A stretch of 64,000 bases of DNA from Nocardioides immobilis (GTDB lineage: Bacteria; Actinomycetota; Actinomycetes; Propionibacteriales; Nocardioidaceae), in the NCBI RefSeq assembly GCF_003515065.1, contig NZ_QXGH01000033.1, forward strand, positions 1 through 64,000, given 5' to 3'. The notes below the pieces were generated by a model. The model ran no database searches. It was given only the letters and a program-made list of their open reading frames with translations, and was not told the DNA's origin. The position numbers and the translations under genes are program-made. Positions 10,910-16,548 of this stretch are shown one piece after another. Positions within the stretch are counted from its first letter, which is position 1, and each line of letters opens with the position of its first letter.

Positions 10910-13237
10910 ATGAGTGAGGAACGGGCCGGCGACCGCCCCGTTCCCGCGCGCCCGGCCGAGGTGCCGGCGTCGACGAGCGAGGCTGCCGGTGGCGGCCGCG
11001 GCATGCGCGCCCGGCTGGCCCGGATGGGCACCCGCACGCCCAGCTCCAACCCGGTGCTCGAGCCCCTGTTCCGTGCGGTCCGGGCCAACCACCCGAAGGC
11101 CGACCTGATCCTGCTCGAGCGCGCCTACGCGACGGCTGAGCGCCTGCACGGCACGCAGATGCGCAAGAGCGGCGACCCCTACATCACCCACCCGCTCGCG
11201 GTGACGACGATCCTCGCCGGGATCGGCATGACCGAGCCGACGCTCGTGGCCGCTCTGCTGCACGACACCGTCGAGGACACGCCGTACACCTTGGAGGAGT
11301 GTCGCCGCGACTTCGGCGACGAGGTCGCCCGCCTGGTCGACGGCGTCACCAAGCTCGACAAGGTCGTCTACGGCGACTCCGCCCAGGCGGAGACCATCCG
11401 CAAGATGATCGTGGCGATGTCGCGCGACATCCGGGTGCTGGTCATCAAGCTCGCCGACCGGCTCCACAACATGCGGACGCTGCGGTACGTGCCGCAGAAG
11501 AGCCAGGAGCGCACCGCCCGCGAGACGCTCGACATCTACGCGCCGCTGGCCCACCGGCTCGGCATGAACACCATCAAGTGGGAGCTCGAGGACCTCGCGT
11601 TCGCGACCCTTCACCCCAAGATCTACGACGAGATCGTGCGGATGGTCGCGGAGCGGGCGCCCTCGCGCGACCAGTTCCTGGCCGAGGTGATCACCCAGGT
11701 CGAGAAGGACCTGCGCGAGGCGAAGATCAAGGCGACCGTCACCGGCCGCCCGAAGCACTACTACTCGATCTACCAGAAGATGATCGTCGGCGGCCGCGAC
11801 TTCTCCGACATCTACGACCTGGTCGGCATCCGGATCCTCGTCGAGGAGGACCGCGACTGCTACGGCGTGCTCGGTGTGCTGCACTCGCGGTGGAACCCGG
11901 TCCTCGGCCGGTTCAAGGACTACGTCGCGATGCCGAAGTTCAACATGTACCAGTCGCTCCACACCTCGGTCATCGGCCCGCAGGGCAAGCCGGTCGAGAT
12001 GCAGATCCGCACCTTCGCCATGCACCGTCGTGCCGAGTACGGCGTCGCGGCGCACTGGAAGTACAAGGAGGACGGCCGCGCGGGCGCCGACACCGACAAG
12101 CGCGGCGACGTCGACGACATGAGCTGGGTGCGGCAGCTCCTCGACTGGCAGAGCGAGGTCGACGACCCGGGGGAGTTCCTCGAGTCCCTGCGGTTCGAGA
12201 TCAACCAGACCGAGACCTACGTCTTCACGCCCCGGGGCGACGTCATCGCGCTGCCGTCGGGCTCGACGCCGGTCGACTTCGCGTACGCCGTCCACACCGA
12301 GGTCGGGCACCACACGATCGGCTCCCGGGTCAACGGCCGCCTGGTGCCGCTCGAGTCGACGCTCGAGAACGGCGACGTGGTCGAGGTCTTCACCTCGAAG
12401 TCCCCGACCGCTGCCCCGTCCCGCGACTGGCTCAACTTCGTGAAGTCCCAGCGGGCCCGCTCCAAGATCAAGCAGTGGTTCACCAAGGAGCGCCGGGAAG
12501 AGGCGATCGACCACGGCAAGGACGAGATCGCCAAGCTGATGCGCAAGGAGGGGCTGCCGCTCAAGCGGCTGCTCACCCATGAATCGCTCAACACGGTCGC
12601 CGAGCACTTCCGGCTCGCGGACGTCACCGCGCTCTACGCAGCGGTCGGCGAGGGCAACCTCGGCGCCCAGGCCGTCGTCCGCCGGGTCATCGAGATGCAC
12701 GGCGGCGACGAGGGCGCCCAGGAGGACCTCGCCGAGGCCGTCACCATCACCGGCCGTCGCAGCCGCCCGCGCCGCTTGGCCCCCGGCACCGACGCCGGCG
12801 TCGTGGTCAAGGGCGCGCCGGACGTGTGGGTGAAGCTCGCGAAGTGCTGCACCCCCGTCCCGCCCGACGGGATCCTCGGGTTCGTCACCAAGGGGGGCGG
12901 GGTGTCGGTGCACCGGACGGACTGCACCAACGCCAGCAACCTCCTGGGGCAGCCGGAGAAGGTGCTCGAGGTCGAGTGGGCGCCCACCGGCCAGACGACG
13001 TTCCTCGTCAACATCCAGGTCGAGGCCCTCGACCGCTCACGCCTGCTGTCCGACATCACGATGGTGCTGTCCGACGCCCACCTCAACATCCTGTCGGCGA
13101 ACCTCACCACCACCCGTGACCGGGTCGCCAAGACCCGCTTCACGTTCGAGATGGCCGACGCCAAGCACCTCGACACCGTGCTCAAGAGCGTGCGCAGCAT
13201 CCCCGGCGTCTTCGACGCCTACCGCGTCACGCAGTAG
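10910..13237 (+). CDS. rel: Bifunctional (p)ppGpp synthetase/hydrolase (RelA/SpoT family)
   Basis: 775 residues, the full long-RSH layout. It makes and degrades the starvation alarmone (p)ppGpp on the ribosome. A disordered N-terminus is followed by the HD hydrolase domain with HDTVEDT (118-124). Then comes the synthetase domain around [13 protein letters not shown] to [16 protein letters not shown], a TGS domain ([19 protein letters not shown]), a conserved Cys pair region ([11 protein letters not shown]) and a C-terminal ACT domain. Intact hydrolase residues argue for a bifunctional Rel, as expected where there is a single long RSH. The apt-rel order is conserved. Expression is likely from the leaderless promoter just upstream. 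Confidence 0.96.
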
Positions 13238-13273: not shown

Positions 13274-13309
13274 GTGCAGGAATCACCGGTGCACCGGTGA
13301 ATCCTGCAC
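13274..13309. repeat. Palindrome, left copy, before the nuclease-like gene
   Basis: Two 18-base arms meeting at 13291/13292 without a spacer. The left arm is GTGCAGGAATCACCGGTG and the right arm is its complement except for one position. A copy of the inner 32 bases lies at 14470-14501. It also sits just after the rel stop and could act as its terminator, though no T-run follows. Confidence 0.9.
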
Positions 13310-13343
13310 TTCTCGGCCGATGCGATGGCCGAGAAGCGCAGGA
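13302..13343. repeat. Second hairpin overlapping the left palindrome
   Basis: A 17-base stem with one mismatch (13302-13318 with 13327-13343) around an 8-base loop. The stem core is CTTCTCGGCC/GGCCGAGAAG. It reuses the last 8 bases of the palindrome, so the two hairpins cannot form at once on one strand. Confidence 0.85.
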
Positions 13344-13434
13344 TGCGGCGGGGAGGATCGCGGTTTCACGCTGCCATCCACAGGTCAGAAGGGCACCGGT
13401 TTGGGACGAATGTTGGCGGGGGCAGCCCTCTTGC

Positions 13435-14394
13435 ATGTACGTCAAGCCCGACGATCCCCGTCTCCTGCCGATCTCCCTGCGCTCCGAACTGCTGGCGGCC
13501 GGAGAGTCCGACCGCAGCCTTGCCCGTGCGATCCGGACCGGGTCGCTTGAACGACCGCGGCGTGGCGCCTACGTGGATGGGGAGCTTTGGCGGTCGATGA
13601 CAGATGAAGAGCGGTACGCCGTACGTTGTCGGGCCGCCTACCGCCAGGCGGAGGCCGAGGTGTTCCTGAGTCACGCGTCCTCGTTGCCGTTACTCGACGG
13701 CCCTCTCTGGGGCCTCGAGCTCGGCGATGCGCACCTGACCCGCTTTGACGGGAAGGCGGGCCGCCGGCAAGCGCGGATCCGCCAGCACTGCGGTGCCGTG
13801 TCCGACGGAGACGTGGTGTCAGCCCATGGAACGCGATTCAGTTCACCGATGCGGTCGGCGCTCGAGGTGACGATGGTCGGCTCGGTCGAGTCCGGGCTCG
13901 TCGTGGCCAATCACTTCCTCCACCGAGGCGACTTCACGCTCGCTCAACTGCAAGAGCGCTACGACGGCGCGATGACCCGATGGCCGTTCTCACTCAAGAC
14001 GGACCTTGTTGTCAGGCTGGCCGATCCGCGGATCGAGTCGGTCGGGGAGAGCCGTACCTTCCACTTTCTGTGGGCGTGGCACTTTCCGCGACCGGATCCC
14101 CAGTTCAAGGTCTACGACAATGGTCTTCTCGTCGCGCGGCTCGACTTCGCACTCCCGGAGCACCACGTGTGGATCGAGTTCGACGGCAAGGTCAAGTATC
14201 AGGGCTCACTTCGCGACGGCGATGACGTGACTGCCGTCGTACTCCGGGAGAAGCGGCGCGAGGAGCGGATCGCTGAGATCACCGGTTGGCGGTGCCTGCG
14301 CATCACCTGGGCGGATCTGGCGAACCCCGCGCGGCTCGCGGCGCGGCTTCGGAACCTCATCGACTCCGTCGCGCGGTCTCGCCGGCCCCGCTGA
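13435..14394 (+). CDS. AbiEi-antitoxin-like wHTH / PD-(D/E)XK nuclease-like protein
   Basis: 319 residues from ATG 13435. The N-terminus (about 1-50: SDRSLARAIRTGSLERPRRGAYV) looks like the winged-helix AbiEi antitoxin domain seen in many actinobacterial proteins. The C-terminus has a DUF559/Vsr-like restriction fold: Glu202 or Glu204 in a helix, Asp237 in ARLDFAL, Glu248 and Lys252 in WIEFDGK, and a final GWRCLRITWADL strand-helix. No toxin gene is adjacent, so a two-gene toxin-antitoxin pair is unlikely. The gene is bracketed by inverted copies of a palindromic repeat (13274-13343 and 14434-14501), which suggests a mobile unit or nuclease-repeat partnership. Biochemical activity is not established for this family as far as I know. 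Confidence 0.75.
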   Translation: MYVKPDDPRLLPISLRSELLAAGESDRSLARAIRTGSLERPRRGAYVDGELWRSMTDEERYAVRCRAAYRQAEAEVFLSHASSLPLLDGPLWGLELGDAHLTRFDGKAGRRQARIRQHCGAVSDGDVVSAHGTRFSSPMRSALEVTMVGSVESGLVVANHFLHRGDFTLAQLQERYDGAMTRWPFSLKTDLVVRLADPRIESVGESRTFHFLWAWHFPRPDPQFKVYDNGLLVARLDFALPEHHVWIEFDGKVKYQGSLRDGDDVTAVVLREKRREERIAEITGWRCLRITWADLANPARLAARLRNLIDSVARSRRPR

Positions 14395-14433
14395 ACGCTA
14401 CTCCTGTCCCACTATTCACATCACCCAGGCAGT

Positions 14434-14501
14434 TCTGGCACTTCTCGGCCGTTGCATTGCCTGATAAGTGCAGGAATCACCGGTGCACCGGTGATTCCTG
14501 C
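14434..14501. repeat. Palindromic repeat, right copy, inverted relative to the left
   Basis: 14470-14501 is a perfect 32-base palindrome with half-site GCAGGAATCACCGGTG. The bases before it (14434-14468), with a CTTCTCGGCC arm and an 8-base loop, match the reverse complement of the left copy without gaps. Its flanking hairpin is degraded (GCCTGATAAG against CTTCTCGGCC). It lies between the nuclease-like gene and the convergent DUF349 gene. Confidence 0.9.
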
Positions 14502-14555
14502 GCCCCCGGTACCTGCTCCCTCGCCCCCGCGGCTCGGCTGACTCGACCCGCAGGC

Positions 14556-15782
14556 TCAGCGGTAGTCGGCGCTGGCCCGCTTGGCCATGTCGAGGAAGGA
14601 GCGGCGGCCCTCGAGGTTCTCCTCGAGCTCGCGGATCTTCTTGGCGTCGCCGGCGGCGCGGGCCTTCTCGAGCTTGGCCTCGGCCTCGGCGATCGCGGCC
14701 TCGAGCTTGGCGACCATGTCGTCGGCACGGGCGGACTTCTCCGGATCCGTGCGCTTCCACTGCTCATCCTCGACCTTGCGGATCGCCTGCTCGACGGTGC
14801 GCATCCGGCCCTCGAGCTCCTTGATCCGGTCCCGGGGCACCTTGCCGGCCTCGTCCCACCGGTCGGCCAGGTCGCGGAACGCGGTCTTCGCCGCCTGCAG
14901 ATCGGTGACCGGGAGCAGCGCCTCGGCCTCGAGGATGAGCTGTTCCTTGACCACCGCGTTGGCGGCGAACTCGGCATCGAGCGCGGCGTTGGCCGCGTCG
15001 CGGGCGCCGAAGAAGGTGTCCTGGGCGGCGCGGAACCGCTTCCACAGCTCGTCGTCGACGCCCTTCGGCGCCGGTCCGGCCGCCTTCCACTGGCGCATCA
15101 GCTCGCGGTACTGACCGGCGGTCGGTCCCCAGTCGGTCGAGTCGGCGAGGCTCTCGGCCTCCTTGGCCAACCGCTCCTTCACCACGCGCGCGGCGTCCCG
15201 CTTCTCGTCCTGCTCCGCGAAGTGCAGCTTGCGCGCCTTGGTGTACGCCGACCGCGCCGACGAGAACCGCTTCCACAGCGCGTCGTCGGCCGCCTTCTCG
15301 ATGCGGGGGAGCTGCTTCCACTGCTCGAGCAGCTCACGGAGCCGGTTGGCGCCGTTCTTCCAGTCCCGGCCGCTGGCGATCGCCTCGGCCTCGACCGCAA
15401 GCTGTTCCTTCTGCTCCTTGGCCTCCGTCGTGCGCCGGGCCTTGTCGGCGCGGCGGGCCTCGCGCTGGACGGCGATGACCGGGCCCAGCTCGTCGAGCCG
15501 CGCGCTCAGCCCGGCCAGGTCCCCGACCGCATGGGCGTCGGACAGCTGCGCGCGCACGGTCTTGACCGCGTTCGCCGCCTCCTCCGGCGACAGAACGCCG
15601 GAGTTCACCCGCTTGTGCAGCAGGTCCACCTCGAGCGCGAGCGCGTCGTACCGCCGCACGTAGAAGGCCATCGCCTCCTCCGCCGGGGCATCGGGCATCT
15701 GCCCCACCGGCCGTTCGCCGTCGGCGGTCTTGACATAGACGGTGCCGTCGTCATCGACGCGGCCCCACTCGCTCGCAGTCAC
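14556..15782 (-). CDS. DUF349 domain-containing protein
   Basis: 408 residues from GTG 15782; TTG 15791 is an alternative. The protein begins VTASEWGRVDDDGTVYVKT and then consists of successive alpha-helical DUF349 repeats with the W-K and LWKRF pattern (DDALWKRFSSAR, DDELWKRFRAAQ). It ends in a strongly charged coiled-coil region. Homologues are widespread in actinobacteria as single genes; the biochemical role is not established. It is transcribed divergently from the MBL hydrolase and convergently with the palindrome-bracketed gene. Confidence 0.88.
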   Translation of the reverse strand: MTASEWGRVDDDGTVYVKTADGERPVGQMPDAPAEEAMAFYVRRYDALALEVDLLHKRVNSGVLSPEEAANAVKTVRAQLSDAHAVGDLAGLSARLDELGPVIAVQREARRADKARRTTEAKEQKEQLAVEAEAIASGRDWKNGANRLRELLEQWKQLPRIEKAADDALWKRFSSARSAYTKARKLHFAEQDEKRDAARVVKERLAKEAESLADSTDWGPTAGQYRELMRQWKAAGPAPKGVDDELWKRFRAAQDTFFGARDAANAALDAEFAANAVVKEQLILEAEALLPVTDLQAAKTAFRDLADRWDEAGKVPRDRIKELEGRMRTVEQAIRKVEDEQWKRTDPEKSARADDMVAKLEAAIAEAEAKLEKARAAGDAKKIRELEENLEGRRSFLDMAKRASADYR

Positions 15783-15816
15783 AATGGGCAATGCTAAGGG
15801 AGACGTGCCTGGCCGA

Positions 15817-15822
15817 TAGGCT
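15817..15822 (+). promoter_or_regulatory. -10 box for the MBL hydrolase gene, leaderless arrangement
   Basis: TAGGCT ends 6 bases before GTG 15829, with no ribosome binding site between them. Confidence 0.5.
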
Positions 15823-15828
15823 GGGTCG

Positions 15829-16548
15829 GTGCTGATCGCCGGCTTCCCCGCAGGACCGTGGGGCACCAACTGCTACGTCGCGGCCACGAGCGCGGGCGCG
15901 GAGTGCGTCGTGGTCGACCCCGGCAAGGACGCTGCGCCCGGCATCGCCGAGGTCATCCGCGAGCACCGGCTCAAGCCGGTTGCGGTGCTGCTGACCCACG
16001 GCCACGTCGACCACATGTGGAGCGTCGCCCCGGTCGCCGGGACGTACGACGCCACCGCGTGGATCCATCCCAACGACCGACACCTGTTGACCGACCCCCT
16101 GGCCGGCGTCTCCCGCGAGTCCGCGGCGATGCTGCTCGGGATGCCCGAGGGCAAGTTCGAGTTCGCCGAGCCCGACGACGTCCGTGAGCTGGCCGACGGC
16201 GTCGACCTCGAGTTGGCGGGCCTGCGGTTCGTCGTCGACCACACGCCCGGCCACACCGAGGGATCGGTCACGTTCCGCACGCCCTACGACCACCCCGACG
16301 TCAGCGAGGTCATGTTCTCCGGCGACCTGCTGTTCGAGGGCTCGATCGGCCGGACCGACCTGCCGGGCGGCGACCACCCGACGATGCTGCGCAGCCTCGC
16401 GACCAAGGTGCTGACGCTCGCCGACGACATCGTGGTGCTCCCGGGCCATGGCGGACAGACGTCCATCGGTCGCGAGCGCGCGACCAATCCCTTCCTGCTG
16501 GAGCTCCAGGACTCGAGCACCGCAGGTCAAGTCACGCGAGGACTCTGA
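15829..16548 (+). CDS. MBL-fold metallohydrolase (glyoxalase II-like)
   Basis: 239 residues. The metal-binding THGHVDH motif (His57, His59, Asp61, His62), the later DHTPGHTEG histidine and FSGDLLF aspartate make it a complete metallo-beta-lactamase-fold hydrolase with two-metal ligands. The N-terminus GPWGTNCYV is typical of the glyoxalase II/thioesterase branch. It precedes hisS in many actinobacteria. The substrate is not known; hydroxyacylglutathione is unlikely because these organisms use mycothiol. The hisS TTG start follows directly after the stop. Confidence 0.88.
   Translation: MLIAGFPAGPWGTNCYVAATSAGAECVVVDPGKDAAPGIAEVIREHRLKPVAVLLTHGHVDHMWSVAPVAGTYDATAWIHPNDRHLLTDPLAGVSRESAAMLLGMPEGKFEFAEPDDVRELADGVDLELAGLRFVVDHTPGHTEGSVTFRTPYDHPDVSEVMFSGDLLFEGSIGRTDLPGGDHPTMLRSLATKVLTLADDIVVLPGHGGQTSIGRERATNPFLLELQDSSTAGQVTRGL

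Follow-up and report, generated by a model that had tools for sequence, protein, structure and literature searches.

In the genome of the soil bacterium Nocardioides immobilis (6.5 Mb), the window—the whole stretch of 64,000 nucleotides analysed here—contains a gene bracketed by two copies of a palindromic element in opposite orientation, the encoded protein joining an AbiEi-like part to a Vsr-like nuclease part. Further copies of the element are dispersed, mostly in extragenic DNA, and from one gene to the next its sequence changes together with that of the protein. There is rather more to be said for than against regarding the whole as a REP-like repeat system with a dedicated nuclease, i.e. 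the layout of the RAYT 'REPtron' with an unrelated enzyme, the copies being possibly propagated by cleavage and repair.

The locus, the protein and the element

The nuclease gene and its two elements (Table 1) occupy the gap between the genes of a RelA/SpoT protein (rel) and a DUF349 protein. A preliminary description of this DNA had seen one gene between two inverted palindromic copies with no toxin partner adjacent, and both statements are borne out: the inverted arms (13276-13339 and 14438-14501) cover 64 nt, align without gaps and are 88% complementary, with the inner hairpin on both sides, and the window has no second gene between rel and DUF349. The element had been given as about 70 bases; the two inverted copies with an inner hairpin stand, the element itself being longer, about 92 nt, with a third half-site. 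A toxin–antitoxin pair was set aside, its partner gene being absent in the window; nor is there a methylase as neighbour, the flanking genes being those of RelA/SpoT and DUF349. The GC3 of the nuclease gene is 0.80 versus 0.97 and 0.93 for its neighbours. The closest named homologue originates from Nocardioides pelophilus (72% identity), apparently identical with genome G119 of the comparisons below. The own genome contains no near-identical second copy of the gene, the other matches there exhibiting 26-28% identity.

Table 1. Positions of the genes and element parts within the window
Feature	Position	Strand	Remark
RelA/SpoT protein (rel), left neighbour	10910..13237	+	rel-DUF349 gap is the insertion site
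Upstream element, outside to inside	13275..13366	+	covariance-model match 79.6 bits; end was in the training set
Outer palindrome P2, upstream	13274..13309		94% complementary
Inner palindrome P1, upstream	13306..13339		
Nuclease gene, 319 aa: AbiEi-like N-terminal DNA-binding part and Vsr/I-Bth0305I-like PD-(D/E)XK nuclease part	13435..14394	+	predicted active site E205, D237, E248, D250, K254
Downstream element, inverted copy	14411..14502	-	covariance-model match 80.3 bits; end was in the training set
Third half-site of downstream element, approximate	14415..14430	-	offset of 20 columns in the alignment
Inner palindrome P1, downstream	14438..14473		imperfect; limits approximate
Outer palindrome P2, downstream, 32 nt	14470..14501		perfect, 100%
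DUF349 protein, right neighbour	14556..15869	-	

Concerning the protein, AbiEi_4 is its sole Pfam match, below the curated cut-off, the same family being matched at E 0.1 or better by 23 of 24 aligned homologues. The AlphaFold2 model, built from 24 sequences, has a mean pLDDT of 91.6 and a pTM of 0.88. Its residues ~10-197 correspond to AbiEi from Streptococcus agalactiae (6y8q; Z 9.7, 172 residues, 6.2 A) and to Rv2827c (Z 7.8), and residues 202-314 to the catalytic domain of the homing endonuclease I-Bth0305I (Z 12.3, 97 aligned residues, 2.4 A)—the closest nuclease fold—as well as to Vsr (Z 10.0), all these assignments coming from VIA-align lists that leave room for other folds. The AbiEi structure is matched also by Foldseek (E 2.5e-5), and a profile search yields AbaSI over residues 181-302 (E 0.0044). 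The domains had previously been described as an AbiEi-like winged helix joined to a DUF559/Vsr-like PD-(D/E)XK domain; AbiEi and Vsr/I-Bth0305I are supported by structure, and the window protein gives no match to Pfam DUF559 (PF04480) at E 1 or better. The DUF559 profile matches one other place in the own genome. The five predicted active-site residues show no substitution in any of the 90 aligned Nocardioides proteins; among 39 wider sequences, which comprise 36 class-wide loci and the three remote paralogues of the own genome, E205, D237, E248 and D250 are present in 39 and K254 in 37. Since these residues are conserved across the homologues, the nuclease is predicted to be probably active.

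The element, according to the consensus of 61 aligned ends, consists from outside to inside of P2 (TGCAGGAATCCCCGGTnnACCGGGGATTCCTGCA), the overlapping P1 (GCACTTGTCGGGCGTTGCAACGCCCGACAAGnGC) and the third half-site, which is the right arm of P1 repeated 20 columns further inward; half-site and P1 right arm agree at 65% of positions within one element versus 49% between different elements. The GTAG tag is absent at either end of this consensus. Changes on both sides are seen in 24 of the 28 palindrome pairs, and the covariation score is 0.41, compared with 0.14 when the pairings are shuffled and no more than 0.08 when they are slid, values for which the share of paired cells leans upwards, the covariance model being based on those 61 of 125 ends that passed a palindrome filter. 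Two-sided changes (227 cells) exceed one-sided ones, such as G-U (64 cells), which leans towards recognition of the palindromes as DNA, without being decisive; an RNA hairpin as the selected form was set aside.

Two further features of the repeats should be mentioned. In other genera (L186-L205), many ends have a common outer motif near AATGATCACGTTCA as their first part; iterated half-sites come next, in many cases around a TGCA-like centre, and the outer motif recurs in several GTDB families. One Nocardioides genome (G010; L034, L036 and L037) exhibits composite solo copies of the type P2-P1-P2, resembling REPIN doublets.

Inverted flanks across homologues and gene-specific pairing

For each gene, the upstream flank was scored against that gene's downstream flank after inversion, the window gene reaching 49. 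The control set comprised 258 ordinary genes in a 400-kb portion of the own genome, with the 99th percentile at 21.4, a value applied also to the other genera; two of the ordinary genes scored at least 36 (44 and 58), both being apparently flanked by related coding sequence rather than by palindromes. A homologue at E 1e-20 or better is present in 163 of 196 Nocardioides genomes, and the sample was formed by the best-scoring 90 Nocardioides loci with both flanks, leaving out L076 (apparently the same species as L047), L063 (at a contig edge, with one flank) and L185 (with too short a flank). All but one of these 90 loci (89) lie above the percentile of the ordinary genes, and outside Nocardioides the same holds for 33 of 35 loci of the class, which cover 12 GTDB families. 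Matched flanks have a median score of 55, the value for flanks taken from different genes being 18; 67 of the 90 loci lie above the 99th percentile of mismatched flank pairs. For the class-wide loci, a stricter control using flanks from other GTDB families was adopted, the mismatched-flank percentile having been inflated by homologous neighbourhoods, and 24 of the 35 pass it. The further second genes, ten in number, all score between 31 and 75. Chance palindromes or ordinary terminators were set aside, the pattern not being shown by the 258 ordinary genes. As to taxonomic range within the class, the protein profile has matches in 124 of 296 genomes and in 64 of 114 genera, counting the own genus.

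It should be pointed out that the flanks of one locus (L198, G449:C12) share a long direct repeat scoring 188 versus 55 for the inverted comparison. The own genome of the window gene harbours, in addition, three remote paralogues of 26-28% identity (L004, L005 and L006 on contigs C45, C62 and C34, respectively), whose inverted flanks score 36, 32 and 61 and whose repeat sequence differs from the window element. Several such gene-repeat systems may coexist in one genome.

The sequence of the element varies from gene to gene, the two copies around one gene matching each other. Of 178 ends, 124 find their best match, among 176 others, in the partner end of the same gene, and for 172 this partner is within the first five; in the 14 genomes from which more than one gene was fetched, the own upstream-downstream pair beats the ends of the other family genes for 29 of 29 genes. 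Protein identity is correlated with element similarity (Spearman 0.36, permutation p 0.001, 88 genes). At the rel site, compared across 15 species, the within-locus pair has a median of 52 versus 26-30 between species, the upstream end being nearest to its own partner, over every other species, in 8 of 15 cases; two other sites give 4 of 12 and 10 of 12. Close relatives can therefore still share orthologous ends and, judging from the 8 of 15 (rel) and 4 of 12 (second site), homogenisation is not fast.

Dispersed copies, empty sites and mobility

The search of the palindrome through the genome, proposed in the preliminary description, was answered differently by the exact and the degenerate forms. 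The exact core ACCGGTGCACCGGT occurs at two places in the own genome, both of them flanking the window gene, while the degenerate P2 (ATCNCCGGNNNNCCGGNGAT) has 17 matches there, with 0 for the control, and up to 38 matches per genome among 118 genomes, never so for the control—this pattern counting one palindrome type, with 1-2 matches per genome being explicable by chance (some of those listed are not palindromic). The covariance model finds matches in 102 of the 118 Nocardioides genomes. When counted among a maximum of 36 scored candidates per genome, with both strands of a palindrome included, the median number of model hits is 29 in the 76 genomes with a homologue at E 1e-65 or better, 10 in the 22 with weaker homologues only and 0.5 in the 20 with none at E 1e-20, the first group differing from the rest with p 1.4e-10 (Mann-Whitney). 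Two of the 76 genomes have no model hit. Seven of the 20 genomes without a homologue at E 1e-20 (G020, G039, G045, G058, G086, G087 and G104) carry at least 10 element hits, so that the elements either outlive the gene or have another user.

Among about 150 listed model hits, eight adjoin a listed family gene, the rest being located apart from the listed genes. The gene context of 43 solo loci, as delimited by a crude gene caller, is intergenic in 33 of them: 20 lie in convergent gaps, 12 in tandem and 1 in divergent ones, and 10 could not be placed, the background neighbour pairs comprising 48 convergent, 78 tandem and 32 divergent ones. Solo density in the own genome is low, with one clear and one weak copy in 400 kb of one contig.

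The solo copies resemble the ends of the gene residing in the same genome. Compared with the gene ends of 74 genomes, 5 of 6 own solos are nearest to their own gene ends, the corresponding values being 4 of 5 for G008 and 1 of 5 for G010, where the others rank 2-4; with the best-scoring solo of each of 20 genomes, the own genome comes first in 10 and within the first three in 12. At an orthologous intergenic site (contig C12), the element has been found in G000, G119, G055, G034 and G042, the model finding no element there in G025, G002, G014 and G033. The copies at this site differ between the genomes, and their own gene ends rank, among 74, 1 for G000, 1 for G119, 39 for G055, 2 for G034 and 1 for G042; copies at one orthologous site thus mostly follow the resident gene. 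The exception, G055, has solos with a TCGA centre, a rel-site gene with a CTAG centre and a second fetched gene of a third type; its best-scoring solo ranks 48 of 74 with regard to the own gene ends, and its solos match neither of the two fetched genes. At a second solo site (C62), the element is found by the model in two genomes, the own one and G119, and in none of the remaining seven loci; the gap there, compared for five of the nine rows, is 37 nt in G025, 30 nt in G014 and 23 nt in G033 versus 123 nt in the own genome.

Concerning the insertion site of the window gene, 5 of 30 rel loci contain the gene, all five with strong element matches, and the 25 without it have a single, weak element match (G033, 36 bits). 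That the gene and both repeats might be fixed at this site in all relatives, a possibility raised in the preliminary description, is contradicted by empty sites: rel and DUF349 are at most 215 nt apart without the gene in 15 of the 30 loci, including G025 and G033. The former is the nearest by rel (96%) among the 59 genomes searched; it lacks the gene at rel and has no P2 match, its family homologue being a weaker one (E 5e-49) and its model hits numbering 7, all of them weak. The rel-DUF349 gap of G033 (L250:1455-1510), 57 nt long and without a gene, contains P2 and the start of P1, the homologue being situated elsewhere in that genome; this truncated element is possibly the scar of a lost or moved unit.

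The 91 genes define 15 shared sites, 20 of the genes being located at sites not shared with other fetched genes, and the gene is mostly inherited in place. No homologue was found in two collections, of plasmids and of phages, and in 51 end pairs direct repeats of 2-9 nt outside P2 are not clearly in excess—the largest count being 4 versus 1.5 expected, at 3 nt—the exact boundaries being uncertain and the insertions old. The mobile unit originally suspected is therefore weakly supported, in view of the absence of a close copy in the genome and of plasmid or phage homologues, the mostly shared sites and the lack of a clear target-site duplication; a classical insertion sequence was set aside on the same grounds of target duplication, close copies and plasmid/phage homologues.

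Possible mechanisms and relation to known systems

The gene-specific variation bears on how the protein may act. That it recognises the palindrome is strongly suggested as a prediction from sequence, and the elements are very likely, as candidates, its cognate DNA. The iteration of the half-sites, the pairing specific to each gene and the conservation of the nuclease make it likely that the protein both reads and cuts its own element: its AbiEi-like part may bind the iterated half-sites, its Vsr-like part would cut or nick at the element, and the break would be repaired from another copy, so that diverged copies, and perhaps nearby sites, would be overwritten by a homing-like conversion. Through such copying, the elements within one genome would remain similar, would spread at a slow rate and would stay linked to the resident gene, while the gene unit presumably moves rarely and behaves as a domesticated gene. 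Orthologous copies changing in step with the resident gene would be explained by cutting and repair from another copy, and we consider it quite possible, with some reserve, that the elements are maintained by cleavage and recombinational copying. More tentative is the general proposal of a second, independently evolved REP system, widespread in Actinomycetes, in which a homing-type nuclease would cut its own dispersed palindromes and repair would copy them, the repeats changing in concert.

Other readings should be considered against the same evidence. A transposase-like enzyme, excising and inserting element units and rarely its own gene, would make the solos non-autonomous MITE/REPIN-like copies, as proposed for RAYTs; the inverted ends around one gene, the presence or absence of solos at orthologous intergenic sites, the composite P2-P1-P2 copies in G010 and the 20 of 91 genes at unshared sites all agree with it, but with no clear target-site duplication in the 51 end pairs, no close gene copies in the genome and absence from the plasmid and phage collections, we regard it as unlikely. 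Strand joining is, moreover, not known to us for Vsr-like nucleases. Slightly greater doubt attaches to a chromosomal DNA-binding protein or a transcription terminator/regulator, for which the elements would be sites in an ordinary protein-site co-evolution, the nuclease acting elsewhere. Many solos are indeed positioned just behind stop codons (20 convergent and 1 divergent of the 33 placed), and AbiEi autoregulates through its winged helix (PMC3985639); this reading would, however, require concerted change at many sites in every lineage, the active-site residues are conserved, and the copies around the genes lie both upstream and just past the stop codon (median 90 nt and 9 nt, 85 loci).

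Two further readings are the least probable. A restriction or defence nuclease, the chromosomal palindromes being self marks or decoys, might be expected from the weak PADLOC matches (AbiEi 24/24, ZorE 10/24, methyl-directed REase 7/24) and the AbaSI profile match, yet it is very improbable next to neighbours such as RelA/SpoT and DUF349 without a methylase, and tens of copies would be few for self marking. The orphan AbiEi antitoxin of a type IV toxin-antitoxin pair, in spite of the AbiEi_4 matches in 23 of 24 members, is disfavoured to the point of being hardly credible: the rel-DUF349 gap has no second gene, a conserved nuclease is fused to the AbiEi-like part, and the repeats are found on both sides and dispersed.

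If the general proposal of a second, independently evolved REP system is correct, much of what is annotated in the class as single-gene AbiEi-type antitoxin would be repeat-maintaining nucleases. In the parts of the literature surveyed, REP families with a dedicated enzyme have a tyrosine transposase as the partner, the same arrangement being formed here with a non-homologous nuclease; dispersed palindromes and dedicated DNA-cutting genes would then have become partners at least twice, the nuclease version occurring in many genera of the class. The family offers candidate cognate DNA sites for a large group labelled as antitoxins by profile libraries, dozens of candidate enzyme-site pairs with distinct sequences, and a natural test of whether the homogeneity of repeat populations is due to transposition, conversion or selection on binding.

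Among the known enzymes, AbaSI, a 5hmC-dependent restriction enzyme, is related by its profile match, its companion domain being different, and we know of no dispersed cognate repeats for it. Vsr and I-Bth0305I have the nuclease fold in common with the window protein, the gene of which stands in an intergenic unit and not in an intron, with the AbiEi-like fusion and dispersed cognate repeats. The AbiEi antitoxins (6y8q; Rv2827c) share the N-terminal fold and the AbiEi_4 profile; AbiE is a bicistronic toxin-antitoxin (PMC3985639), AbiEi binding inverted repeats to regulate its own operon (PMC7319586), whereas the window protein has an extra nuclease domain, no toxin partner in the window, and repeats both on its two sides and dispersed. 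None of the best-ranked papers from open-access PMC, as judged by titles and abstracts, describes this nuclease-repeat association.

The arrangement itself leads to the RAYTs, described as tyrosine transposases whose genes always have two inverted REPs at their sides (PMC2817692), as distinct single-copy genes, each with its own repeat and not self-mobile (PMC3116915), and as housekeeping-like, domesticated genes (PMC8266576). The TIRYTs forming the TIRtrons are RAYT-like genes with longer inverted repeats on either side, and these repeats may in addition constitute a family (PMC3733652), a layout likewise seen in the window; unlike the window protein, they are tyrosine transposases. RAYT repeats flanking the gene by accident were set aside, Y1_Tnp being absent from all 59 Nocardioides genomes examined by a search that was positive in 5 of 14 control genomes; nor is Y1_Tnp among the 7 Pfam families matched by 24 family members. 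The enzyme of the window family, unlike RAYT, is thus a Vsr-like PD-(D/E)XK nuclease with an AbiEi-like part and not an HUH/Y1 protein, its element consists of two palindromes and a half-site with no GTAG tag, and the copies count in tens as measured, whereas RAYT repeats often number hundreds. Like the domesticated RAYTs of two of these sources (PMC8266576, PMC3116915), the family is found mostly in shared sites, with no close copies and no plasmid or phage homologue. The likeness to REP elements and RAYTs with a restriction-fold protein, remarked upon at the outset, therefore holds in anatomy—dispersed palindromes, the inverted pair and gene-repeat co-variation—and, as in the RAYT/REP 'REPtrons', one gene is accompanied by two inverted palindromic repeats, by dispersed extragenic copies and by a repeat of its own.
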